From a bacterium (GTDB taxonomy: Bacteria; Zhuqueibacterota; QNDG01; DSAB01): a DNA stretch of 64,000 nt. The stretch is from positions 1-64,000 of the forward strand of contig JAFGDT010000098.1 in the NCBI GenBank assembly GCA_016931965.1, given 5' to 3'. Of the stretch, positions 49,343 through 64,000 are shown piece after piece (positions within the stretch are counted from its first letter, which is position 1; every line of letters begins with the position of its first letter). The notes under the pieces are model-generated. The model searched no databases and was not told the DNA's origin. It worked only from the letters and a program-made list of their open reading frames with translations. The translations under genes were made by a program, and so were the position numbers.

Positions 49343-50800
49343 TTAGGCAGCACCATAACCCGTTAAAACAACAAAAACGGTACGGACAAGTATTTTAAAA
49401 TCCAACCACAGAGAAAAATGATCAATATACCAGAGATCCATCTCCATCCATTGCTCAAAATCAATTTTATTCCTTCCGCTGACTTGCCAGATACAGGTTA
49501 ATCCCGGTTTCATGCTGAGACGTCTCCGCTGCCAAGTTTCATACATTTCAACTTCATCGGAAAGAGGCGGACGTGGACCCACCAAACTCATATCACCCTT
49601 GAGAACATTGAAAATTTGAGGATATTCATCAATGCTGAACCTTCGCATAAATCTACCAAATCGAGTCACTCGAGGATCCCTTTTCATTTTAAAGACAGGT
49701 CCATTCATTTCATTTTGTCTTTTTAATTCTTTTTTTCTGACTTCCGATCCAACATACATAGATCGAAATTTATATAATGTAAATTTTCTTCCGTTGAGTC
49801 CACAACGTGTTTGACGGAAAAAGATGGGTCCCCTGGAAGTTATTTTGACGCCTATAGAAGCAATTAAAAAAACAGGAAACAACAGAATCAGGAATAGTGT
49901 AGCAATAAAAATATCAAAAATCCTTTTAAAAAACAATTGCCATTCTTTGGCCATAGAAGTCTGAAACATGATGAGAGGAATTCCCGCAAATTCAGACTGA
50001 CGAATTCGAGCCAATTTCGGTTTAAATAAATCAACTGAAATGGCTGTATCGATCCCCTCTCTCTCACAGTGATTGATCGCTTCTTCGATTCGATTCAGCC
50101 ACATTCTTGGAACCACGAAAATCACCCGATCAATTACAAATTCACGGAGGATCCGAGGAATATCTCTAATACGACCAATCACTTCATAATCCATAATACT
50201 TTTACCCAATAATTTTGGATCATCATCGATCAAACCAATAATTTTCAATCCCCAGTTCGAATGCGCTTTAACAAGATTAATAAATTCTTGGGCCCGCTTT
50301 CCTGTTCCAACGATAAGCATATTAACAAGACTGTATCCCTGCCGAAATGTATAATCCAAAAACCACCGCCATAAAGCTTTCTCAATACCCAGGCATATCA
50401 CTCCTGTTATTGCAAAAACGGCGACGTAAAGTCTACTCGTCAAGGTCATTTTGAGAAGAAAAACGACATATCCCAAAACAATAACCGACACGATACATGT
50501 CCGAAATACTTTCCAAAGAATTTCAAGAAAAATTTTAGTTCGAAATCCTACATAAACACCATCAATTGACATTAAACTGATCCACACAGGAATCGTAATC
50601 AGAACGAGCCAAATATGATTCTCTAAAAAATATAGAGCCCCATCCAATGATATTTGTGTGGCATATGCCATGCCTCCCGTTGTCAAGAATGGTCTTATCA
50701 AAAGGGTAATAAAATAGGCGATGATAAAAGATATCATAATCATAATAACATCTGTTATTTTCATCAAACGAATAAAAAATATTTCTTTCTCTCGAACCAT
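49343..50800 (-). CDS. Exopolysaccharide polyprenyl glycosylphosphotransferase (WbaP/CpsE-like initiating transferase)
   Basis: N-terminal TM bundle, CoA-binding-like domain, then KRIFDIFIATLFLILLFPVFLIASIGVKITSRGPIFFRQTRCGLNGRKFTLYKFRSM and LKGDMSLVGPRPPL. Confidence 0.93.
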   Translation of the reverse strand: MVREKEIFFIRLMKITDVIMIMISFIIAYFITLLIRPFLTTGGMAYATQISLDGALYFLENHIWLVLITIPVWISLMSIDGVYVGFRTKIFLEILWKVFRTCIVSVIVLGYVVFLLKMTLTSRLYVAVFAITGVICLGIEKALWRWFLDYTFRQGYSLVNMLIVGTGKRAQEFINLVKAHSNWGLKIIGLIDDDPKLLGKSIMDYEVIGRIRDIPRILREFVIDRVIFVVPRMWLNRIEEAINHCEREGIDTAISVDLFKPKLARIRQSEFAGIPLIMFQTSMAKEWQLFFKRIFDIFIATLFLILLFPVFLIASIGVKITSRGPIFFRQTRCGLNGRKFTLYKFRSMYVGSEVRKKELKRQNEMNGPVFKMKRDPRVTRFGRFMRRFSIDEYPQIFNVLKGDMSLVGPRPPLSDEVEMYETWQRRRLSMKPGLTCIWQVSGRNKIDFEQWMEMDLWYIDHFSLWLDFKILVRTVFVVLTGYGAA

Positions 50801-50802
50801 AC

Positions 50803-51762
50803 TTACACCCTTGAATCCGATTCCTGAACATACCACTCAATAAATTTCTCAATGCCTTTTTGAATAGACACTTTTGGATAAAAATCCAATTCGGCTTTGG
50901 CTTTTTGAATATCTGCATATGTAACAGGGACATCACCTGGTTGATCGGGAAGTGATTTTATTTTGGCATTTTTACCTAATGCATTTTCCAGCAGACGAAC
51001 AAGATGTTTCAATTCAATTGTTTGCGACTCACCCAAATTATAAATATGATATCCTTTACACCTGTCAATTGCGTTTTCTATACCATCCACAATGTCTGTT
51101 ATATAGGTATAATCTCTACGACTTGTCCCATTTCCAAAAAAGGGAATTTCTTTTTCTTCTGAAATGAGTCTTGTAAATGTATATATCGCCATATCGGGTC
51201 GCTGTCTCGGACCATAAACAGTAAAAAATCGAAGACAGGTTACTGAAATAGAATAAAGATAAAAATAAGTGTATGCCAATAATTCACCAGCTCTTTTTGT
51301 AGATGCATAGGGCGAAATAGGGCAATCTACGGAATCATCCTCACTGAAGGGAACTTTGCTATTTTTACCGTAAACAGAGGAAGATGAAGCAAAAATAAAT
51401 TTAGAAACTTGGAATTGTGAGCTCATTTCTAATAGATTTAAAGTACCTTCGACATTGACTTTTTGGTAAAGATGAGGTTGTTGAATAGACGGACGAACAC
51501 CCGCTCTGGCAGCCAAATGAACGATAGCATCAAAATGCGTATTTTTGAACAGATCTTGAAGAAGTTTTTTGTCTAAAATATCCCCCTCGACCAACCGATA
51601 ATTCGGATGTCTTGACACTGTAACAATATTTAGACGTTTTATTCTTGGATCATAATACGAATTAAAATTATCTAAACAAACAACATCATCACCTCTTTCA
51701 ATCAAACGTTCACAAAGAAAAGATCCGATAAAACCGGCTCCGCCAGTGGCAAGAACACGCAT
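50803..51762 (-). CDS. NAD-dependent epimerase (UDP-glucuronate 4-epimerase-like)
   Basis: VLATGGAGFIGSFLCERLIERGDDVVCLDNFNSYYDPRIK; FASSSSVYGKNSKVPFSEDD; YASTKRAGELLAYTY; FFTVYGPRQRPDMAI. Confidence 0.9.
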   Translation of the reverse strand: MRVLATGGAGFIGSFLCERLIERGDDVVCLDNFNSYYDPRIKRLNIVTVSRHPNYRLVEGDILDKKLLQDLFKNTHFDAIVHLAARAGVRPSIQQPHLYQKVNVEGTLNLLEMSSQFQVSKFIFASSSSVYGKNSKVPFSEDDSVDCPISPYASTKRAGELLAYTYFYLYSISVTCLRFFTVYGPRQRPDMAIYTFTRLISEEKEIPFFGNGTSRRDYTYITDIVDGIENAIDRCKGYHIYNLGESQTIELKHLVRLLENALGKNAKIKSLPDQPGDVPVTYADIQKAKAELDFYPKVSIQKGIEKFIEWYVQESDSRV

Positions 51763-51772
51763 GATTTATTCC

Positions 51773-54079
51773 TTAATATCGATAGTAGCTATAACCCTCA
51801 TGAGCAACCTCAACGCCAGCGCAATTGAGAATCGCACCGATCACTTTTGCTTCCACATTTTGAAATAGCTCCAATTTCCGTTTTATATCTTCTCTGTGCG
51901 ATTTACCGGCTCTGATTAAAACAGCAACGCCATCAACAAGGGTCCCCAAAATGATAGCATCCGTAGCAGCCAAGAGAGGTGGAGTATCAAAAATAACAAA
52001 ATCATATCGCTTGGTTATTCCCTCGATAAATCTTTTCATTCTGATCGAACCCAAAAGCTCAGATGGATTGGGTATAAGAGAACCACACGTAATTAAAGAT
52101 AGATTCGGGATATAGGTTTCATTGATAACATTATCAAAAGATACAACACCAGTGAGATAATTGGTAAAACCCGGTTTCTTGGGGCAATTAAAACTGTTGT
52201 GCAATACGCCACGTCTCAGATCTGCATCAATCAAAAGAGTTTTTGATTTCTGTTGGGCCATTGTAATAGCCAAATTCGCCGCAGTAAATGATTTACCCTC
52301 TCCGGGTGAAACACTTCCAATAGCAATAGACCGAATAGGACCAATATTCTTTGAAAAAATAAGATTTGTACGTAATGACCGGTAAGCCTCACCCACAGGT
52401 GTTGGGGAATAATCATGCGTCACAATTTGTGAACTGATACTCTTCGCCTTCTCAGAATCCTGAAGTTCATAATCATCAAATTTGACTTTGGGAATAACAC
52501 CCAACAGAGGCAGTTTCAAGTAACGTTTTACATCCTGGTGTGTTCTGATCCTTTTATCTGCTATCTCCCAGATAACGGCCATCACAATCCCGAGGAGAAA
52601 TCCCAATACAGCTCCCATAAAGGCTTTGGTGATTTTATCTCCGGTTCGCGGAGCCGAAGGAGGTAAAGCTGGATCAATGACGTATGCATTTTCTGAAATA
52701 ACAGCCTCAGACAGCTCAGCTTCTGTAAATTGCCTGAGATACAAATTGTATATATCCTCATTGACTCTCCTCTGCCTTTCAAGTTTAATCAATTTCAAAT
52801 CCTCTTCAGGAAACGTATCCAATTCTTTTTGAAGTTCTTCCATCTGATCTTCGATTTGAGTAATCTGTCTATCCAATTCTATTAATTTATTCTTCGCCAA
52901 TGATACAATCCTATCTTCAAGAAATAACAATCTCGCATTACTTTCAATAACTTCTGGGTTCGTTTCTGGCAAATCTCTGTCCCAACGCAATCCTCTTATG
53001 AATTGCCTTTCATCTTCATATTGTTGTCTGATCAATTCCATATCGGAATCACCATCAAAAACCTCATTTTGAGCGATTTGTCTATATACATAAGGCGCAT
53101 CGATATCCATATTAAAATCGGCGGATGTAAAATCCATCAGTCCCAAACAAAAAATCAATTCATTGCGGAAAGTAGCCAATCTTGTACTGTCACCATGTAT
53201 TGCATTTAATCGATTGATTGTATCCTGTGTTTCTTGGTCAAGTCCCATTAAGTGTTCATTTCTGAAAGCTTTCAGTTGGCTGTCGTATTTATCGAGCTCT
53301 TGTTGCACCACTCTTAATTGATTTTCTAGAAAATTACTAAAAGCACGACTATTTTCATCCCTCATTTCAGAACTTTTCTCTATTAAGATTTCGGCCAACA
53401 TATTTACAGTTTGAGCCAAAAGTACTGGATCTCGATCCGCTAAGTAGATACCAATTTGATTATTTAAAGGTGGATTTGACCAAATACTTAATCTCGACTG
53501 AAGCGATCGTGAAGTCGATTGAAAGTGATGAATCCTAAAAGTCACATCTGTGTGATTGATCACTGCGTTTGGATTTAAGGAGAAAGAAAATCCATTGTAA
53601 GATACAGTATCTTCAATAAAGCGTTCAACTTGGAGGCTGTCCAACAGATCTGATTCAAAATACAAGGCACAGATGTTCGTAGGATAAAAACGCAATGTAT
53701 AAGTTCCTGGCACGGGTTCTTTCGTTGTCGAAAAGATTTTAAAAACATCCTGTCGGTTAATGAATGGTTGATCTTCCTGCTGAATCAACTCAACCGCCAA
53801 TCCGAGTGTTGCAGTCACCTCTTCGGCAAATGTACGGCTCTGCAACCGTGCAATACGGCTTTGTACAAGACTTTCCGGAACACCCCCAATATTTTCAAAG
53901 TGGATAATTACCTCGGTATCATAAATGGGTGGTTGTCTTTTCAAATAAAGAACCCATGGAATAGTAATCCCTAAAAAAGCAATTCCAATTAACCACCACC
54001 TCCGAATGATTCCCTTTAAATATCGAGAAAAATCAATACTTTCTTCACTTTCAACCGGATCTTCAAAAAAATTATCCAT
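51773..54079 (-). CDS. Wzc-like chain-length determinant / BY-kinase
   Basis: Wzz N-term, coiled coil, GNVR-like second TM region, Walker A GSVSPGEGKSFTAANLAITMAQQ, Walker A' TLLIDADLRRG, C-terminal Tyr cluster EGYSYYRY. Confidence 0.93.
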   Translation of the reverse strand: MDNFFEDPVESEESIDFSRYLKGIIRRWWLIGIAFLGITIPWVLYLKRQPPIYDTEVIIHFENIGGVPESLVQSRIARLQSRTFAEEVTATLGLAVELIQQEDQPFINRQDVFKIFSTTKEPVPGTYTLRFYPTNICALYFESDLLDSLQVERFIEDTVSYNGFSFSLNPNAVINHTDVTFRIHHFQSTSRSLQSRLSIWSNPPLNNQIGIYLADRDPVLLAQTVNMLAEILIEKSSEMRDENSRAFSNFLENQLRVVQQELDKYDSQLKAFRNEHLMGLDQETQDTINRLNAIHGDSTRLATFRNELIFCLGLMDFTSADFNMDIDAPYVYRQIAQNEVFDGDSDMELIRQQYEDERQFIRGLRWDRDLPETNPEVIESNARLLFLEDRIVSLAKNKLIELDRQITQIEDQMEELQKELDTFPEEDLKLIKLERQRRVNEDIYNLYLRQFTEAELSEAVISENAYVIDPALPPSAPRTGDKITKAFMGAVLGFLLGIVMAVIWEIADKRIRTHQDVKRYLKLPLLGVIPKVKFDDYELQDSEKAKSISSQIVTHDYSPTPVGEAYRSLRTNLIFSKNIGPIRSIAIGSVSPGEGKSFTAANLAITMAQQKSKTLLIDADLRRGVLHNSFNCPKKPGFTNYLTGVVSFDNVINETYIPNLSLITCGSLIPNPSELLGSIRMKRFIEGITKRYDFVIFDTPPLLAATDAIILGTLVDGVAVLIRAGKSHREDIKRKLELFQNVEAKVIGAILNCAGVEVAHEGYSYYRY

Positions 54080-54119
54080 TCCAACTCCTCATAATGTATC
54101 CAAACGGGACAACGGTTGA

Positions 54120-54833
54120 TCACCAATATCCTGATCTCAATCTAAGATAAAGCAAAACCATTGAGGCAAGAAGATTGATGATATTGATATAAAAATAGAA
54201 ATCCATCCGACCCTGAGCAGGAGCAATAATTTGATCCCCCGATTCTATACCTGCATCTTCGAGTGAATACCCTTCCTCGAAGCTTTCCAGCAGATTTTTT
54301 TTCACAACCTTACCCCCTCTTTCCACCACCATACCTGATAAGTCACAATTGTACGTCGGCCCACCAGCCAATGTAACCAGATCATGAAGCGAAGCGGATG
54401 GATCAATACGATAAGCTCCTGGTCTTTGAAAAGCACCCTGCATCGTCACCCGAATCAGGGGGCGAACACTGACATAGAGATTTTTCATGTATGCTTCAAG
54501 TTTCTCCCTCAGGCTTTGCATCAGCTCAACCTCCGTTAATCCGCTCACCCGTACTTCTCCAATAAGTGGCATAATAATATAACCCCTTGAATCAATTCCA
54601 TAATCACCGCTCAGGATATCATTACCCACCGCTTCCAGATCCAATTTCATGACCTGGATCCTAACAGCATCTCCTGGTCGAAAAATAGTCAACGTCTTGG
54701 CGGTATTACTCCATTGATAATCGGTCGTCAATTGTGCATTCAACAGTGATGAAAATGATCCTCCTAACAGAAATTGACCTATGATAAAATATTTAAAAAC
54801 AATCCGCATGATGTTACATTTAGGAACAGACAT
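54120..54833 (-). CDS. Wza-like polysaccharide export protein (Poly_export/SLBB)
   Basis: FRPGDAVRIQVMKLD...GDYGIDSRGYIIMPLIGEVRVSGLTEVELMQSLREKLEAYM; SLBB-like GAFQRPGAYRIDPSASLHDLVTLAGG. Confidence 0.9.
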   Translation of the reverse strand: MSVPKCNIMRIVFKYFIIGQFLLGGSFSSLLNAQLTTDYQWSNTAKTLTIFRPGDAVRIQVMKLDLEAVGNDILSGDYGIDSRGYIIMPLIGEVRVSGLTEVELMQSLREKLEAYMKNLYVSVRPLIRVTMQGAFQRPGAYRIDPSASLHDLVTLAGGPTYNCDLSGMVVERGGKVVKKNLLESFEEGYSLEDAGIESGDQIIAPAQGRMDFYFYINIINLLASMVLLYLRLRSGYW

Positions 54834-54988: not shown

Positions 54989-55693
54989 TTAACGAGAACG
55001 ATAAAAACGATACCGTTTTCCCTTCGTTTCGAGATTCAACTTTTTAAGGAGCGAATACATTCGAAACCAACCAATCTGAACCAAACCATATTTTTTCGTT
55101 CTTAATTGTTCACAAATCCCCTTGGTCCCCCAAAATGGATTCTCGATAACAATCATTTTGATTTTTTCCATTAATGGCAAATCTTTTAATGGAATCGTTG
55201 GATTTGATGAATGGGTGTTTGTCCTCTTCTGCGCGTATTTGAGAGCAGTGACAGCTTGGATATTTGAAAAATCTGAAGGTTCTTTTTTAATTGGTTGTCT
55301 TAATTCAAAATCTATATTTGAGATATCAATTCCACGGATAATGTCAAACTCGTCTATAGCCTCTTCTATCGAATCGTAATAGTTGAGAATTTTATTAAAT
55401 TCCAACATTTCAAATACTTCAAAGACTTCATAACTCATTTGAACGATCTTTAAATCCCCTCCCCGATCCTTGATATTTTTTATCTCACTCACAAAAACAC
55501 CCCACCCTGCACTACTGATATAGGTAACCCCTCCGAGATCTGCAATAATGAGGTATTTTTTTTCCTTTATTAGTTTCTCAATAACTCTTGCCAATTCCTG
55601 GCAAGTTGTTGTATCCACATATCCTAAAATCGTTATCAAAGCAATATCAAATCGTGCACCGACATCATTGACTGAGATCTTAATTCCCTGCAT
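54989..55693 (-). CDS. STAS-domain (anti-sigma-factor antagonist-like) protein with C-terminal transposase-like HTH
   Basis: STAS: YLIIADLGGVTYISSAGWGVFVSEIKNIKDRGGDLKIVQMS; C-term MEKIKMIVIENPFWGTKGICEQLRTKKYGLVQIGWFRMYSLLKKLNLETKGKRYRFYRSR resembles HTH of IS3/IS481-type transposases. Confidence 0.82.
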   Translation of the reverse strand: MQGIKISVNDVGARFDIALITILGYVDTTTCQELARVIEKLIKEKKYLIIADLGGVTYISSAGWGVFVSEIKNIKDRGGDLKIVQMSYEVFEVFEMLEFNKILNYYDSIEEAIDEFDIIRGIDISNIDFELRQPIKKEPSDFSNIQAVTALKYAQKRTNTHSSNPTIPLKDLPLMEKIKMIVIENPFWGTKGICEQLRTKKYGLVQIGWFRMYSLLKKLNLETKGKRYRFYRSR

Positions 55694-55751: not shown

Positions 55752-57239
55752 TTATTTTTTCCTTGAAATGCATTTACTGTATAATTGAATATACTTCTTT
55801 GATGAAATATTCCATGAAAAATCTTCTCGCATACCGTTTTTCATAATTTTAAACCATAGCTTTTTATTTGAATAGGTGGCTACAGCTCGTTTAACGGCTC
55901 TTAAAACATCACTGCCATTGAAACGGTTAAAAACAAAACCTGTTCCCTTCCCAGTTTCTGGATGAAACGTCTTTATTGAATTGTATTCCTCTCCCTTTGA
56001 ATATACAATAGGGACACTACCATATTTTAGACAAGACAATTGATCTAATCCATGTGTATCATATTTTGAAGGAACAAGAACAATATCTGCCCCTGCTTTA
56101 ATAAGATGGGCTGTTGAAAGATCATAAACCAGATCAATTCCCAATCGATCACTATATTTTTTCTTGACCTGCTTAAAAAACTGATAATAGGCTTTAATCT
56201 CTTGTCCGATAAGAATTAAAACAATATTCATCTCCATCAACTTGCCAATGATCTTTTTCATGAGTGCCAAGCCTTCATCATCTATTATATTGGAGATAAT
56301 AGCGAGTACAGCCGTCTCCTCAGAATAAGGAATATGATATTTTTCTAAAAGAGCACGTTTATTCTGTTGTTTACTGCCAATGTCTTTAATACCATACTTA
56401 AAGGGTATCAAATTATCGACTTCAGGATTCCAAACACTATAATCGATTCCACTTGAAATACTGTAATATTTTTCACGACGGGAATTGAGTACTTCCTCCA
56501 TGTTATACTTGTTATTTTTGTTCGGCTGATGCGGTGTGCTATACTTGTTGCTCACGATATTAACTGCATCGGCATAAACAATTCCCGCTTTTAAAAAACT
56601 GCAGTGCCCATGAAATTCAATACCACTTCCTGGAAAAACAAAATTTCCATTGACACCCATATACGACAGACAATTTGGATGAAAGTTCCCCTGAGAATTA
56701 AAATTATGGACGGTAAAAAGTGAGGAAGTATGATGAAAAAAGGGATTGTCCTTATTCATTGTTTTGAGAAAAAAGGGTATCAAACCGGACTGCCAATCAT
56801 TACAGTGAATGACATCAGGTTGCCATTGCAGTTTCGTCAACGTTTCCAAAACACCCTTGGAAAAAAGAATAAATCGACGGTCATTATCTTGATAATCTTT
56901 CCCGTTTTTATTATCCACATAGAGGCCATCCCTAAAAAAAAATGGTTTATAATCAATAAAATATATTTGCACTTTCGAATTTGGAAGAAAAGCCGATTTT
57001 ACATTGATGCGGACGGTCTCATCTCCCAGAGGGACATCAATATCTTGAAGTCGAATCACATCGCGAAGAACATACTTGCGCTCATTCACAATTCGATATT
57101 GTGGTGTAATGACGCGCACATCATGTCCCAAATCCTTTAAGGCTTTTGGAAGCGCTCCTCCCACATTTCCCAGCTCGCCCGTATTGGTAAATGGAGCGAC
57201 CTCTGAAAAGACCATTAATATTTTGAGCATACTCTTCAT
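55752..57239 (-). CDS. Glycogen/starch synthase (GlgA, GT5)-like protein, probably catalytically altered
   Basis: GlgA-like throughout (SEVAPFTNTGELGNVGGALPKALKDLGHDVRVITPQY; DVIHCNDWQSGLIP; LFTVHNFNSQGNF; ADIVLVPSKYDTHGLDQLSCLKYGSVPIV) but with catalytic motif substitutions. Confidence 0.88.
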   Translation of the reverse strand: MKSMLKILMVFSEVAPFTNTGELGNVGGALPKALKDLGHDVRVITPQYRIVNERKYVLRDVIRLQDIDVPLGDETVRINVKSAFLPNSKVQIYFIDYKPFFFRDGLYVDNKNGKDYQDNDRRFILFSKGVLETLTKLQWQPDVIHCNDWQSGLIPFFLKTMNKDNPFFHHTSSLFTVHNFNSQGNFHPNCLSYMGVNGNFVFPGSGIEFHGHCSFLKAGIVYADAVNIVSNKYSTPHQPNKNNKYNMEEVLNSRREKYYSISSGIDYSVWNPEVDNLIPFKYGIKDIGSKQQNKRALLEKYHIPYSEETAVLAIISNIIDDEGLALMKKIIGKLMEMNIVLILIGQEIKAYYQFFKQVKKKYSDRLGIDLVYDLSTAHLIKAGADIVLVPSKYDTHGLDQLSCLKYGSVPIVYSKGEEYNSIKTFHPETGKGTGFVFNRFNGSDVLRAVKRAVATYSNKKLWFKIMKNGMREDFSWNISSKKYIQLYSKCISRKK

Positions 57240-57303: not shown

Positions 57304-58140
57304 TCACTGCAGTTCCGATATATACCGGTTGGCCTGACTAACATATTCACTTGTGGGATAATTATCAATTAGCTTCTGAAACTCTCTTATTGCTCTTTCA
57401 TTATCGTTTAAGCGGGCATAACAGAGTCCCAACTTTAACTGAGCATCAGCATCTTTATTCGAATTGGAAAAAGAAAACACTTTTTCAAAAGAAACAATGG
57501 CCTGTTGATATTGTCCCAAACCGTAATAGCATTCCCCAATCCAATATTGACAGTTATCCGAAAGGGTATGCCTGCTGTTTACGGTTAAAAGATCTTCAAA
57601 TTGCTGAATGGCTTCTCTGTAATTACGAGAATTATATTCTTTAAGAGCAATATTATAGCGATCGGTAAACGTCGTTGCTTGTAATACGGGCTCTACACTT
57701 TCTCGAGATTGGGTTGTGCTTTGTGTAGTCCCTTGTTGTCCTGAAGAAGACACACTTTCTCTTTGAGCTGTCGTTCCTGCGAGACTTGACTCTTGCGCTT
57801 GAAGCACTTCTTGTTCACTTTCCAATTGCTGAATCTTCGATTCAATACTGGATCTATCTGTTGCTGTTTGTTGATTGGTGGCTGGTTTGGTTTCTTCTGT
57901 GACTCCCAATAATCTCAAAACGTCATCTTCTGCGATCGTTTCTTCCTCTGTGGTTCTTGCCTTTGTATCTGTCAATCCAAGGAGCTCATCAATATCTGCT
58001 ACACTTTCTACTTCTGTTTCCTGCTGTGTTGTACTTCCCGTTGTAGCACATCCGATAAACCATATTAGACTGCATGTAATAAAGCTCATAAAAAATAAAC
58101 GCATATATTTCATTGTATCCATGGCCCCTTCTCCTCTCAT
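57304..58140 (-). CDS. TPR-containing lipoprotein (YbgF/CpoB-like)
   Basis: Lipobox-like LIWFIGC; Gln/Thr/Ser-rich linker; TPR repeats YNIALKEYNSRNYREAIQQFEDLLT...NCQYWIGECYYGLGQYQQAIVSFEKV. Confidence 0.8.
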   Translation of the reverse strand: MRGEGAMDTMKYMRLFFMSFITCSLIWFIGCATTGSTTQQETEVESVADIDELLGLTDTKARTTEEETIAEDDVLRLLGVTEETKPATNQQTATDRSSIESKIQQLESEQEVLQAQESSLAGTTAQRESVSSSGQQGTTQSTTQSRESVEPVLQATTFTDRYNIALKEYNSRNYREAIQQFEDLLTVNSRHTLSDNCQYWIGECYYGLGQYQQAIVSFEKVFSFSNSNKDADAQLKLGLCYARLNDNERAIREFQKLIDNYPTSEYVSQANRYISELQ

Positions 58141-58191: not shown

Positions 58192-59016
58192 TCAAGATTT
58201 TTTCAAACCTAATGATCTATCTTTTTTCAATTTGATAAATAAAATAAGCCCAATCAAAAACATGAAAAAAGAAATCAACTGATTGAACGTTAATGTTAAT
58301 CCTATAAAGCGAAATGTAACCGAAGCTTCATAATAACGAACAAAATCGACTGCAAAACGGAATATCCCATAAAGTATAAAAAATAGGGAAGATAAAAGGC
58401 CATCTACACGGGGTTTTCTATCAAACAAGAGAAGAGCGCATAAAATAATCAAACCGTAAAGTGAAGAATATAACTGGGTAGGATGAATGGGTTGAGAAGG
58501 AAAAGTCACTCCTGCCGGACTTCTTAAGGGAAAAACAACAGCCCAAGGTAAATCACATGTTTTGCCATAACAACATCCGGCCAAAAAACAACCAATGCGG
58601 GTTAAGAAAATGCCAAGAGCAAACGAAGGTGCAAAGACATCAAAAAGTCGTAAAACCGGAATTTTTTTTCTTCGACAATATAGAAAAATAGCCAAAAGAG
58701 CCAGGACAACACCACCCAACATCGATGTTCCCCCAATGCCAATCTCTCCCGAGCTCTGGATAGGATTAAATGTATCGGTCCAATGTCCCCGAAATTCATC
58801 CACATGTGTCACAACATAAAGTAATCGAGACCCAACAATGGCACAAATAACCACGATGATAGACACATCCATCACATGGTTACGCTCAAGATTTCGTTTC
58901 TTAACCCGATATATGGACCAATAGATCCCTATCAAAAAGGAAAGGGCCAACATAAGACCATAGGAGTGAATCTGAAATCTGCCAAAACTGATCAATGTGG
59001 GATACATAATTATCAT
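58192..59016 (-). CDS. lgt: Prolipoprotein diacylglyceryl transferase
   Basis: RFQIHSYGLMLALSFLIGIYW; GGVVLALLAIFLYCRRKKI; RIGCFLAGCCYGKTCDLPWAVVFP; QPIHPTQLYSS. Confidence 0.95.
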   Translation of the reverse strand: MIIMYPTLISFGRFQIHSYGLMLALSFLIGIYWSIYRVKKRNLERNHVMDVSIIVVICAIVGSRLLYVVTHVDEFRGHWTDTFNPIQSSGEIGIGGTSMLGGVVLALLAIFLYCRRKKIPVLRLFDVFAPSFALGIFLTRIGCFLAGCCYGKTCDLPWAVVFPLRSPAGVTFPSQPIHPTQLYSSLYGLIILCALLLFDRKPRVDGLLSSLFFILYGIFRFAVDFVRYYEASVTFRFIGLTLTFNQLISFFMFLIGLILFIKLKKDRSLGLKKS

Positions 59017-59033
59017 TCCTCCCTATAATGAGA

Positions 59034-60266
59034 TTAATACTTATACCGCTGACTGGATACATTCATGGCCAAACCCATGAGGATTAAAGTCATGAAAAGT
59101 GAAGATCCTCCATAACTTAGAAAAGGAAGAGGCAATCCTGTGATGGGCACAAGCCCAACCGTCATACCAATATTCACAAAAAATTGAAAAGCAAGAATAG
59201 AAACAGATCCAGTGACCACCAAACCAGCGAAATCATTTCGTGCTGTTCTTGCTATGTGGAGCAGATGATAAAAGAGAAATAAAAACAATGTCAAAGCCAC
59301 CATAACACCAAGAAATCCAAACTCTTCCCCAAAAACAGAAAAAATAAAATCTGTATGTTGCTCCGGCAAAAAGCGAAGTTGAGTTTGCGACCCTTGCATA
59401 AAACCTTTACCCAAAATATTTCCCGAACCGATGGCCACTCTGGATTGAATGGCTTGATATGCCGCTCCGTGAGGATCCGTCTTTATCCCTAAAAAAATGA
59501 GAATACGTTGCTGTTGATACGGCTCAAACGTTGACCACACAACAGGTGCCAGTAAACCTAAAAAAAGACTGATACCTGTGATACATAACCTTTTCCACCA
59601 TCGAATTTTTTTAATAAAGAATCCTGCCCATAATATAACCAAAAAACCAATAAAACTGAAAAGATGAAAACCCGATACCAAAGCAAAAAAAGGAACAAAC
59701 AGATAAAATATGATTTTCCATGTAATACCTGCCCATACGACCATAAAAACAAAAATGGCAAAAAATACAGATGCGGTACCTACGTCAGGTTGTTTTAAAA
59801 TCAAAAGAACAGGCAAAATGATCAAACTCAAAGCAATGAGAAACTGTCTCCAATTTAAATGACCCTCCTTTTTTTGAGATAAATAATGTGCAAGTGCAAG
59901 CACTGTGGCCACTTTTGACAATTCAGAGGGCTGAAATTGGAAACTTCCAAAGGAAATCCAGCGATGAACCTGTCCGGACGAAGCAAACAGAACAACCAAC
60001 AAAAGAACAAGAGAGAATAGGTACCCTATATATGCACCCCGAAAGAACAACTGAAACGGTATGAATAAAATAATAATAAATAGAATAAATCCCAAACAAA
60101 ACCATACAATTTGTTTCTCGAAATCCGTAGACAGAGAAACTGTTTCTCTACCTGCCATAATGCTGTAGAGACAGAGAAATCCGATAAAAAGAAGAGACAA
60201 CATCTCTAATAAGAGAACGTAATCCAACGATAAATTTTTTAACCGACTGATATACTGTCTCTTCAT
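59034..60266 (-). CDS. rodA: Rod-shape SEDS peptidoglycan glycosyltransferase RodA
   Basis: FQFQPSELSKVATVLALAHYLS; LKQPDVGTASVF; GKGFMQGSQTQLRFLPEQHTDFIFSVFGEEFGFLG; GLPLPFLSYGGSSLFM. Confidence 0.96.
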   Translation of the reverse strand: MKRQYISRLKNLSLDYVLLLEMLSLLFIGFLCLYSIMAGRETVSLSTDFEKQIVWFCLGFILFIIILFIPFQLFFRGAYIGYLFSLVLLLVVLFASSGQVHRWISFGSFQFQPSELSKVATVLALAHYLSQKKEGHLNWRQFLIALSLIILPVLLILKQPDVGTASVFFAIFVFMVVWAGITWKIIFYLFVPFFALVSGFHLFSFIGFLVILWAGFFIKKIRWWKRLCITGISLFLGLLAPVVWSTFEPYQQQRILIFLGIKTDPHGAAYQAIQSRVAIGSGNILGKGFMQGSQTQLRFLPEQHTDFIFSVFGEEFGFLGVMVALTLFLFLFYHLLHIARTARNDFAGLVVTGSVSILAFQFFVNIGMTVGLVPITGLPLPFLSYGGSSLFMTLILMGLAMNVSSQRYKY

Positions 60267-62035
60267 AGAATAACCGATTTTCTAAAGAACCGTCGAATGA
60301 TTTCACCCGCAATCGGAGCAGCCACTCCTCCCCCGCTTCCTCCATTCTCAACAACCAATGCAATCACAATTGCCGGATTATCCAGTGGTGCAAACCCGAT
60401 GAACCAGGCATGATCTTCACCGTGGGGATTCTGTGCTGTTCCTGTTTTACCGCAGATTTCGATATCCGAAGACCATGCAGCCCTTCCCGTTCCTCCTAAC
60501 TGATTAACCACCTGCCACATACCTTCTTTTAACTGTTGAAACACCGGTTTGGAGATTCCATTGACATGATTCATTTGAATGGGCTCTTTATTCCAATTCC
60601 CGGACCGATCCTGAATTGCCTGAACAACATGAGGTGTCGGATATTTTCCCTCCATACCGATAATCGTCGCCAAAATCGCCATCTGCATCGGTGTTACGAG
60701 CAAATCACCTTGACCGATCGATAGATTGACAACCATTCCCTTCCCCCACAATCCCCGACCATACTTTTCATCCAAATAGTTCCGATTCGGTAAAAGCCCT
60801 TCGTTCTCGCCGTCTAAATCGATCTGCGTTATTCTTCCAAATCCCAAATAACTGCTCAATCGCACCCATCGATCTACACCTACCTGCAATCCCAGTTGAT
60901 AAAAAAAAACGTTACACGACTCTCGGATAGCATCGAGAATATTTATCGATCCATGACCTTCGGGTCGCCAGCAGGGAAACATACGCGTTCCAAGCCAAAA
61001 TGTACCTCCACAAAATAATTCCTTTTGGGTATCGATTAGACCTGCTTCAAGTGCCGATGCAGCCGTAACCAGTTTATAGGTTGAACCGGGTGGAAGCTGA
61101 GCTTGTATCGTTCGGTTCAGAAGAGGTTTATCAGGATCGCTGCTCAGATTATCCCACGCTTTTTTTGATAATCCCCGGGCAAAGGGTTCCAGACTATAAT
61201 CCGGCTTGCTGACCATTGTGAGGATTTCACCATTTTGAGGATCGAGTACAATAATCGCACCTTTCTGATCATTTAGGAGATCTTCCGCCAATCTTTGAAG
61301 ATCCATATCCAAACCCAGTCTGATATTGGTTCCCGAAATGGGTTGGATATCTCTTTTCCCATTAAAATTTCCAACTTCTCTGCCATGAACATCTACTTCA
61401 TGGTATTGATATCCCCTCTCCCCCCGAAGAATCGAATCATACCACTTCTCCACACCCGTCTTCCCGATCATATCACCCATTTTATAACCATTCCCATTCA
61501 GCACATTCAATTCTGATTCATTGATTTCACTCAAATACCCAATGAGATGACTGGCTCGAATATCCGTTGGATAGGTTCTTACCGGTTCGTGTTGATAAAA
61601 AACACCGGGCAAATCAAGCCTGGATTCCTCTATTTTAGACAGTGTTTCAAAATCCACGTCCCGCATAATACGAAGCGGTGTGAATAAGCCCGTTCCGGCT
61701 TGCAAAATGCGTTCCTTTATGTCTTGATCTGATAAACCCGTGATAGAGGAAATGCGTTCCACCATCTCTGGATGTTTATTCAACTCATAAGGAATGACGA
61801 AAAGAGAATAACTGGGACGATTATCCACAAGAATCCGATTGTATCGGTCAAAAATGAGCCCCCGATTGGCCGCAACCGATACCTGCCGCACACGATTACG
61901 ATCCGACCAAGCCTCATAGATCGAACCACTCAGCACCTGTAACTGGAAAAAGCGCACGGACAGGATAATAAACAAGAAAATGATAATTCCCTTCAGGATG
62001 CGTTCCCGATTATGTCGATAAATATAGAAAGACAC
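60263..62035 (-). CDS. mrdA: Penicillin-binding protein 2
   Basis: Transpeptidase PPGSTYKLVTA (SxxK), KTGTAQNPHGEDHAWFIGFAP; N-term DRNRVRQVSVAANRGLIFDRYNRILVDN. Confidence 0.96.
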   Translation of the reverse strand: MSFYIYRHNRERILKGIIIFLFIILSVRFFQLQVLSGSIYEAWSDRNRVRQVSVAANRGLIFDRYNRILVDNRPSYSLFVIPYELNKHPEMVERISSITGLSDQDIKERILQAGTGLFTPLRIMRDVDFETLSKIEESRLDLPGVFYQHEPVRTYPTDIRASHLIGYLSEINESELNVLNGNGYKMGDMIGKTGVEKWYDSILRGERGYQYHEVDVHGREVGNFNGKRDIQPISGTNIRLGLDMDLQRLAEDLLNDQKGAIIVLDPQNGEILTMVSKPDYSLEPFARGLSKKAWDNLSSDPDKPLLNRTIQAQLPPGSTYKLVTAASALEAGLIDTQKELFCGGTFWLGTRMFPCWRPEGHGSINILDAIRESCNVFFYQLGLQVGVDRWVRLSSYLGFGRITQIDLDGENEGLLPNRNYLDEKYGRGLWGKGMVVNLSIGQGDLLVTPMQMAILATIIGMEGKYPTPHVVQAIQDRSGNWNKEPIQMNHVNGISKPVFQQLKEGMWQVVNQLGGTGRAAWSSDIEICGKTGTAQNPHGEDHAWFIGFAPLDNPAIVIALVVENGGSGGGVAAPIAGEIIRRFFRKSVIL

Positions 62036-62550
62036 TATGAAGATCCTTTGTTATACTTCTTTTTCAAAAAACCGGTGATACTTCTAATCAAAATACTACA
62101 AAAAACGGTGTAGAAAACCGAAGGTATTCCATATCGTAAAGCCAATTTGAAAAAACTGCCAGCCGCATTTTGACTCACGACAACCAGATAAATGATCTGA
62201 TGGACCAGTGATGCGATGAAGATGTTAATCCCGAAAATGACCATATTTTGATGATAATGGCTCCATGGAAACGAACAGGATAGATAACAAGCTATGGATC
62301 GTGATAAAGCAAAAACACCCAGCAAACCACCCTCCATTAGATCTTGTGATAAGCCACCTACAAACCCTAATAGGACACCCTGATAACGGCTTTTTTGTAT
62401 GCACCAGGAAACCATGAAAATGAGTACCAAATCAGGGGCAATTTCCTTCACCTGAATAAGTGTCACAAAACTGGACTGAACGATAATAAGCACAACAACA
62501 ATGAATAATGCTTTATAAAAATCCACAAAATCCCTACTGTTCATGCTCAT
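62035..62550 (-). CDS. mreD: Rod shape-determining protein MreD
   Basis: 171 aa TM protein with GFVGGLSQDLMEGGLLGVFALSRSIACYL between mreC and mrdA. Confidence 0.9.
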   Translation of the reverse strand: MSMNSRDFVDFYKALFIVVVLIIVQSSFVTLIQVKEIAPDLVLIFMVSWCIQKSRYQGVLLGFVGGLSQDLMEGGLLGVFALSRSIACYLSCSFPWSHYHQNMVIFGINIFIASLVHQIIYLVVVSQNAAGSFFKLALRYGIPSVFYTVFCSILIRSITGFLKKKYNKGSS

Positions 62551-63343
62551 CGGAAACTGTTTCTTTTAATACCAAAACCTCTTCAAGCGTATTGAAATCG
62601 ACTTCAAGCTGAAGCCTGACCTCTTGAAAAAGATCTTCTTCCTCGTGTGATACCCAATAGATTCTTCCAATCGGCAATCCCTGCGGATAAATCTGACTGT
62701 ATCCAGAAGTTACAACCAAATCTCCTGTCTGCACATCGGCTCTTTGGTGAACGCCCTCTAAAACACAAACGTTGCTATAGAGCCAGCGCACAATACCCAG
62801 GACGCGACTTCTCTGCACCCTTCCACTGATTCTGAAATTGGGATCGGTTACAATTTGACCGATTGATGTGGTCCTACTTACAGAAATCACTTTTCCAACA
62901 ATCCCTTTATCGGTCATCAATACCATATTGTCTTGGCATCCATTTTCAAAACCCACGTTCAGATAGACCGATCCGGGTATCCCCGTTGATCCCATACCAA
63001 CAACCCTGGCCGGAATAAAAAGGTATTGATTTCTTTCCTGAAAATCCAGGAGCCTTCTCAAACGGCTGTTTTCACCTATCATATCTTGAACCTGGAACTG
63101 TTGCATGGCTATTTTACCCAATTCCACCATCAGACGTTCATTTTCTTTTCGGATGATCAATGATCGGGGTAGCCAGGAGATGCCGTCATGAATTCGACCC
63201 ACCCATCCGGTTACCCGGATTTTTATCGATTGGATGGGAGATGTCTGATCGATTGCCATCAGAAAAATGGAAAAAACAATCGCTGCAATCAAAAGGCAGC
63301 GATCTTTATACTTTTTCCATTTTCGGGTCAGTTTAACCGACAT
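62534..63343 (-). CDS. mreC: Rod shape-determining protein MreC
   Basis: ENSRLRRLLDF; ARVVGMGSTGIPGSVYLNVGFENGCQDNMVLMTDKGIVGKVI; GDLVVTSGYSQIYPQGLPIGRI. Confidence 0.93.
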   Translation of the reverse strand: MSVKLTRKWKKYKDRCLLIAAIVFSIFLMAIDQTSPIQSIKIRVTGWVGRIHDGISWLPRSLIIRKENERLMVELGKIAMQQFQVQDMIGENSRLRRLLDFQERNQYLFIPARVVGMGSTGIPGSVYLNVGFENGCQDNMVLMTDKGIVGKVISVSRTTSIGQIVTDPNFRISGRVQRSRVLGIVRWLYSNVCVLEGVHQRADVQTGDLVVTSGYSQIYPQGLPIGRIYWVSHEEEDLFQEVRLQLEVDFNTLEEVLVLKETVSDEHEQ

Positions 63344-63345
63344 GG

Positions 63346-64000
63346 CTATATTCGCGCTTTAAGATTTAATACTTTCTTATATTGATCGATATCTTCTAAA
63401 ACCTTACCCACACCCCGAACAACCGCTGTTAAAGGATCTTCTGCTAAATTGACCGGTAAATTCGTCTCTTTTCGGAGCCGTTCATCCAATCCTTTCAATA
63501 GAGAACCTCCCCCAGTTAATATGATTCCCCTTTCTAAAATATCGGAGGAAAGTTCTGGAGGCGTGCGTTCCAAAGCCAATAGTACAGCCTCAACAATCGC
63601 TCTGACAGGTTCCTCTACAGCATCTTGAATATGCTCGGATGTAGCCTCCACTGTACGGGGTATCCCCGTGATGATGTCTCGGCCTCGAACTGGAATGATG
63701 CGGCTGTCCTGAAAGGGTCTTGTGGATCCGAATCGGATTTTGAGTTCCTCGGATGAGATTTCACCCAACAGAAGATTGTGTTTCCGTTTAAAGTACTGGA
63801 TAATGGATTCATTCATTTCATCCCCGGCGATGCGGATAGAGATTTTTGTAACGATGCCCGACATGGCCACAACCGCAATTTCAGTAGTTCCCCCTCCGAT
63901 ATCCACAATCATACTGCCCAAAGGTTCGTGAATAGGCAAACCGACACCGATGGCAGCAGCCATCGGTTCCTCCACAAGATAAACGTCACGCGCGCCTGCA
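63346..64000 (-). CDS. mreB: Rod shape-determining protein MreB (5' part outside window)
   Basis: AGARDVYLVEEPMAAAIGVGLPIHEPLGSMIVDIGGGTTEIAVVAMSGIV; ILTGGGSLLKGLDERLRKE; reading frame open to the window edge. Confidence 0.96.
   Translation of the reverse strand, partial: AGARDVYLVEEPMAAAIGVGLPIHEPLGSMIVDIGGGTTEIAVVAMSGIVTKISIRIAGDEMNESIIQYFKRKHNLLLGEISSEELKIRFGSTRPFQDSRIIPVRGRDIITGIPRTVEATSEHIQDAVEEPVRAIVEAVLLALERTPPELSSDILERGIILTGGGSLLKGLDERLRKETNLPVNLAEDPLTAVVRGVGKVLEDIDQYKKVLNLKARI

Follow-up and report, generated by a model that had tools for sequence, protein, structure and literature searches.

Why should a bacterium keep an intact gene for a glycogen synthase-like protein whose substrate site has been extensively replaced? 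This question is raised by a gene in the window (the whole stretch of DNA analysed, 64,000 nucleotides), which an earlier note had read as a probable pseudoenzyme with nearly all catalytic motifs substituted. We propose that it encodes a pseudo-glycogen synthase kept for a non-catalytic role and give this reading a probability of about 0.7; the lack of activity, the ligand, the partner and the biological output are all inferred. The gene and its surroundings, all on the minus strand, are as follows.

55752..57239, minus strand: putative pseudo-GlgA (GT5 fold) coding sequence, 495 aa (open reading frame, family match, model, Foldseek)
56535..57224, minus strand: N-terminal GT5 domain (PF08323) of this protein, the better preserved half (domain match and domain identity)
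54989..55693, minus strand: STAS-domain protein with a helical, HTH-like C-terminal segment, directly downstream; the phylum-wide synteny partner (domain match, synteny, model)
49343..54833, minus strand: wza-like polysaccharide export, Wzc-like, sugar epimerase and sugar transferase genes, downstream
57304..58140, minus strand: TPR protein (YbgF/CpoB-like), upstream neighbour (domain match)
58192..63975, minus strand: lgt, rodA, pbp2, mreD, mreC and part of mreB, elongasome-type genes, upstream and in the same direction (names by sequence reading)

A GlgA fold with a broken donor site

The coordinates and the intact 495-codon frame were borne out by the open reading frame and its translation. 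A sequencing or frame artefact was rejected, since the frame is intact and the same pattern recurs in many independent assemblies. The predicted protein is GlgA-like along its whole length, as had been claimed: it matches the glycogen/starch synthase family TIGR02095 over its full length (434 bits, cut-off 328; the score lies below all equivalog cut-offs) and aligns nearly end to end with E. coli GlgA (2qzs; E=2.6e-66). A 45-row alignment gave an AlphaFold2 model (pLDDT 87.8, pTM 0.88) with the GT-B fold of solved GlgA structures, and the top Foldseek match of this model is 2qzs (TM 0.87), indicating that the GlgA fold is retained. The Pfam GT-1 C-domain was undetected in the protein, though the model predicts a complete fold. 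In length, fold, N-domain motifs and residues E9, D137 and H161, the protein is like bacterial GlgA (GT5; TIGR02095; E. coli 2qzs, A. tumefaciens 1rzu), from which it differs in lacking K15, G18, R300, K305 and E377.

The substitutions hold up when many sequences are aligned, beyond comparison with any single reference; the E. coli and A. tumefaciens sequences were taken from printed search alignments. The protein carries K15N, G18E, D21N, N246S, R300N, K305E and E377D, and further P378T, C379H, T382D, T398K and G400E, while E9, L19, D137, H161, N162, Y355, G380, L381 and Q383 are retained. Scored on published residue roles (PMC6210743, Tables 1 and 2; PMC7137382), the ADP-glucose site is broken by K15N, G18E, N246S, R300N, K305E, E377D and T382D, and the KTGGL donor loop reads NTGEL. 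Five key codons were placed by alignment.

57183..57185, minus strand: Asn19 codon at the K15 position (KTGGL, ADP-glucose)
57174..57176, minus strand: Glu22 codon at the G18 position (KTGGL)
56289..56291, minus strand: Asn317 codon at the R300 position (phosphate-binding)
56274..56276, minus strand: Glu322 codon at the K305 position (phosphate-binding)
56058..56060, minus strand: Asp394 codon at the E377 position

Losses fall on 7/13 conserved columns of the substrate site compared with 26/105 other conserved columns (Fisher p=0.045). GlgA is canonical at these sites in five genomes from this taxonomic order that share the gene arrangement (G002, G003, G006, G007 and G008), so the window substitutions exceed chance. 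Of the replacements at K15, G18, R300 and K305, 30/89 are acidic, compared with 7% at the remaining conserved columns that are not themselves acidic; this count overstates independence because the sequences share descent. The proposed change of the catalytic Glu to Asp (E377D) was confirmed by alignment. The wider statement that nearly all catalytic motifs are substituted holds for K15, G18, R300, K305 and E377 and was slightly overstated, as E9, D137 and H161 remain. The survival of D137 and H161, together with the conservative nature of E377D, is a caveat against inactivity.

The genome lacks a recognisable glycogen pathway

The window protein is the only GT5 in its assembly, where the best glgC-type match reaches E=1e-14 compared with 1e-87 or better in most glgC-bearing genomes. 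A GH13 branching enzyme, GH57, glycogen phosphorylase and a GT3 glycogen synthase were not found in this assembly, which is 94% complete. We had taken an ADP-glucose supply with a glycogen pathway as a criterion for a working GlgA, and the window genome does not meet it. The remark that no glgB or glgC lies nearby was thus an understatement, neither being found anywhere in the assembly. A genome of the same family (G001, 96% complete) and another of the same order (G005, 95%) are likewise without a good glgC match and have a degraded GlgA.

These data make it highly improbable that the gene encodes an ordinary active glycogen synthase with tolerated substitutions. Such an enzyme would fit the full-length TIGR02095 match above cut-off, but not the loss of R300, K305, K15 and G18 together with E377D, nor a genome in which glgC, branching enzyme and phosphorylase were not found.

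GlgA occupies a conserved envelope locus

The STAS protein and cell-envelope genes reported as neighbours are confirmed, and the arrangement extends well beyond the window. GlgA sits in the same slot in 76 of the 82 phylum genomes (a count that includes split contigs when the half-locus agrees), in the order elongasome genes-TPR-(galT-like)-glgA-STAS-wza-wzc, continuing past the wza- and wzc-like genes with an epimerase and a sugar transferase. Named records that show this gene order come under the labels Calditrichota, uncultured Deferribacteres or unclassified bacterium, and it was absent from all Ignavibacteria, Chlorobi-type and other GlgA loci compared. A GalT-like gene (GalP_UDP_transf/HIT) lies between the TPR gene and glgA in many relatives (e.g. 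loci L210, L120, L208 and L129) and is missing there in the window. Four genomes (G035, G069, G070 and G077) have lost GlgA from the slot and retain the STAS gene, and the role of GlgA is dispensable there. An undetected GlgA in these genomes was rejected, as the gap (loci L196-L199) holds a GalT-like gene.

Downstream of wzc, window positions 397-48918 (minus strand) hold a very large surface polysaccharide cluster of ~48 kb. Genes named by eye include glycosyltransferases, flippase-like proteins, two asparagine-synthetase-like genes and a carbamoyltransferase-like gene.

The donor site has degenerated repeatedly

We scored same-slot copies at seven key sites (K15, G18, D137, H161, R300, K305 and E377) and called a copy degraded when at least two were lost. 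Among full-length copies, 41 were perfect at all seven sites and 27 were degraded; R300 was lost in 27/27 degraded copies and G18 was kept in only one. Two further copies, in which only G18E (G057) or only K305M (G081) is found, look like possible intermediates or early steps.

If the degraded copies formed a conserved clade, a tree should have revealed it. The possibility of a single degraded clade was rejected, since both trees that we built show degraded copies scattered among canonical ones. On a neighbour-gene tree the degraded state needs seven changes, with eight all-degraded clades if loss is irreversible; the GlgA tree requires six. The neighbour-gene tree, a quick tree without bootstrap, was used for counting because long-branch attraction may draw degraded copies together on the GlgA tree.

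Some genomes encode a second GlgA elsewhere. These copies are canonical at all key sites in 20 cases, unlinked to the slot, and mostly fall in a separate clade with outside GlgA sequences, which suggests from sequence grouping that they were acquired rather than duplicated. Examples whose grouping with outside sequences suggests horizontal acquisition are found at loci L180, L188 and L191 (G032b, G028b and G036b). We also rejected the possibility that the degraded copies have an active paralogue within the locus: the slot is single-copy, and the active second copies are unlinked and mostly of the other clade.

A missing glgC or a second GT5 accompanied 22/26 degraded copies versus 5/44 (Fisher 9e-10). 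After correction for relatedness, the link between degradation and redundancy rested on about 3 pairs for and 0 against (median p 0.25) and was not significant, with informative independent pairs nearly always in the expected direction. In four genomes (G033, G044, G060 and G066) the GlgA is degraded, a glgC-type gene is present and a second GT5 was not detected; these may contain another synthase, or some degraded copies might have kept their activity.

Degraded copies are under purifying selection

Compared pairwise within genera, degraded copies gave dN/dS values of 0.026-0.16 where dS was measurable, and most canonical pairs gave 0.036-0.067 (Nei-Gojobori; several dS values are near saturation). 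Both domains of the degraded copies are constrained, with dN/dS far below 1. The degraded same-slot relatives are thus under purifying selection; for the window lineage, which has no close relative for dN/dS, this is inferred from them. The window N-domain is 0.592 identical to those of four active order-mates, which are 0.602 identical among themselves, and the corresponding C-domain values are 0.383 and 0.500. Judged by these identities, the N-domain of the window protein has kept the level of conservation seen among active relatives, and the extra divergence is that of the nucleotide-binding C-domain.

The gene could instead be a decaying pseudogene, drifting since glycogen synthesis was lost and intact by luck or operon position, which we consider improbable. 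In its favour, several order-mates share with the window genome the absence of pathway genes, amino-acid sites change about twice as fast in degraded as in canonical copies, and the gene has been lost in four lineages. Against drift, all 27 degraded copies, from at least eight lineages, have full-length frames (internal stops were seen in canonical G055, with one internal TAA at locus L029, and in the second copy of G080), and W128, W138, W253, P130, Y389 and G390 are kept in every one of them. The low dN/dS in both domains and the conservation of the window N-domain also argue against this explanation.

A further alternative is a re-purposed enzyme whose remodelled site transfers some other sugar from a different donor, or carries out a different reaction, for example for the adjoining polysaccharide cluster. 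The purifying selection on degraded relatives, the polysaccharide-making locus, and the retention of E9, D137, H161 and an acidic residue at 377 would all suit such an enzyme. We still regard it as unlikely: Asn and Glu stand in place of the two basic residues that bind phosphate, the glycine-rich donor loop carries an acidic residue, and the replacements vary by lineage, so there is no shared new motif. Also, the confidence of the model drops in the block with the E377 loop and at residues 231-250.

The pseudoenzyme reading of the earlier note is supported, with loss of activity inferred, and becomes much stronger from the phylum-wide comparison, since the same slot holds a canonical GlgA in many relatives and a degraded one in at least eight lineages, with purifying selection on the degraded copies. 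Pseudoenzymes are usually met one at a time, as curiosities. In this case the change from an active to an inactive enzyme can be followed within a single syntenic slot in at least eight lineages, and possible intermediates are available together with active relatives that serve as controls.

A proposed second role at the envelope locus

What was observed is the loss of residues, the fold, the conserved locus, the recurrence of degeneration, the purifying selection acting on degraded relatives and the absence of a glycogen pathway. Going beyond this, we propose the following course of events. The window gene would be a vertical descendant of a GT5 GlgA at the junction of the cell-elongation genes and the polysaccharide-export cluster. 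Its ancestor is inferred to have been catalytically canonical, because all outgroups and the 41 same-slot copies are canonical, and probably also had a second role at the envelope locus that needed no glucosyl transfer. Glycogen synthesis would then have been lost (in the window order) or taken over by a separately acquired second GlgA (in other families), after which the donor site may have decayed and the protein been kept for its second role. The protein is most likely a non-catalytic scaffold or sensor that binds glycan or protein, which is inferred and not shown. Its best preserved part is the acceptor-side N-terminal domain, and on that ground binding of a glycan or a protein is inferred, without binding data, to be its likeliest activity. 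This domain would do the work with the neighbouring STAS regulator, and the predicted output is control of envelope or extracellular polysaccharide production.

More tentatively, GlgA of this phylum may have two functions, as a synthase and as a non-catalytic envelope or polysaccharide regulator acting with STAS. After each glycogen loss or takeover a pseudo-GlgA regulator would remain, with acidic residues keeping the nucleotide sugar out. We hold this broader proposal as a possibility only. If the retained role is real, a core glycogen enzyme is tied to cell elongation and surface polysaccharide, and ordinary GlgA in the phylum has a hidden second function that is directly testable.

Precedents make the pseudo-GlgA reading credible. 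Plant STARCH SYNTHASE 5 (SS5) is called a non-canonical, non-enzymatic starch synthase in PMC10801857, which cites Abt et al. 2020. Like SS5, which is without enzymatic activity, the window protein is inferred to be a starch-synthase-type protein kept for a non-catalytic role. The plant protein acts in starch granule initiation and lacks much of its GT1 half, whereas the window protein is predicted to keep the whole fold and no glucan store is predicted. Bacteroidetes keep a GT5 GlgA fragment alongside a GT3 synthase (PMC11046441). Both cases involve a GT5 remnant retained where another enzyme can synthesise, but the window protein is full-length and in a fixed envelope locus, and no sequence comparison lies behind the likeness. 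By analogy, these two would be the closest precedents. In the open-access literature we found no report of a full-length, recurrent bacterial pseudo-GlgA, nor of glycogen in this phylum.

The STAS neighbour

A functional link between GlgA and the STAS protein is inferred from adjacency only, without binding data. The SSAG motif of the STAS protein is invariant in the 4 aligned copies, and wza and wzc are adjacent. No Pfam match was obtained for its C-terminal segment, whose HTH-like look was judged by eye, and its model is weak (pLDDT 63.9) and was used for the STAS domain only. A STAS regulator can control a polysaccharide locus, as SypA does for syp in Vibrio fischeri (PMC4517449). Like SypA, the window STAS protein has a conserved Ser region and adjoins polysaccharide genes; unlike SypA, it carries an additional segment at its C terminus, and no kinase or phosphatase is recognised next to it. 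This likeness concerns the neighbour and not the GlgA-like protein. No kinase or phosphatase partner was recognised by eye among the window open reading frames.

A second STAS protein of the same architecture is encoded on another contig of the genome (L215:9050-13309; G000:C112, about 55-59 kb). Directly beside it lies a 1171-aa protein with HATPase_c_2, HAMP, SpoIIE phosphatase, HTH and TPR regions, a partner-switching pair in the same genome. The position of this STAS paralogue beside a HATPase-SpoIIE fusion makes partner switching plausible.
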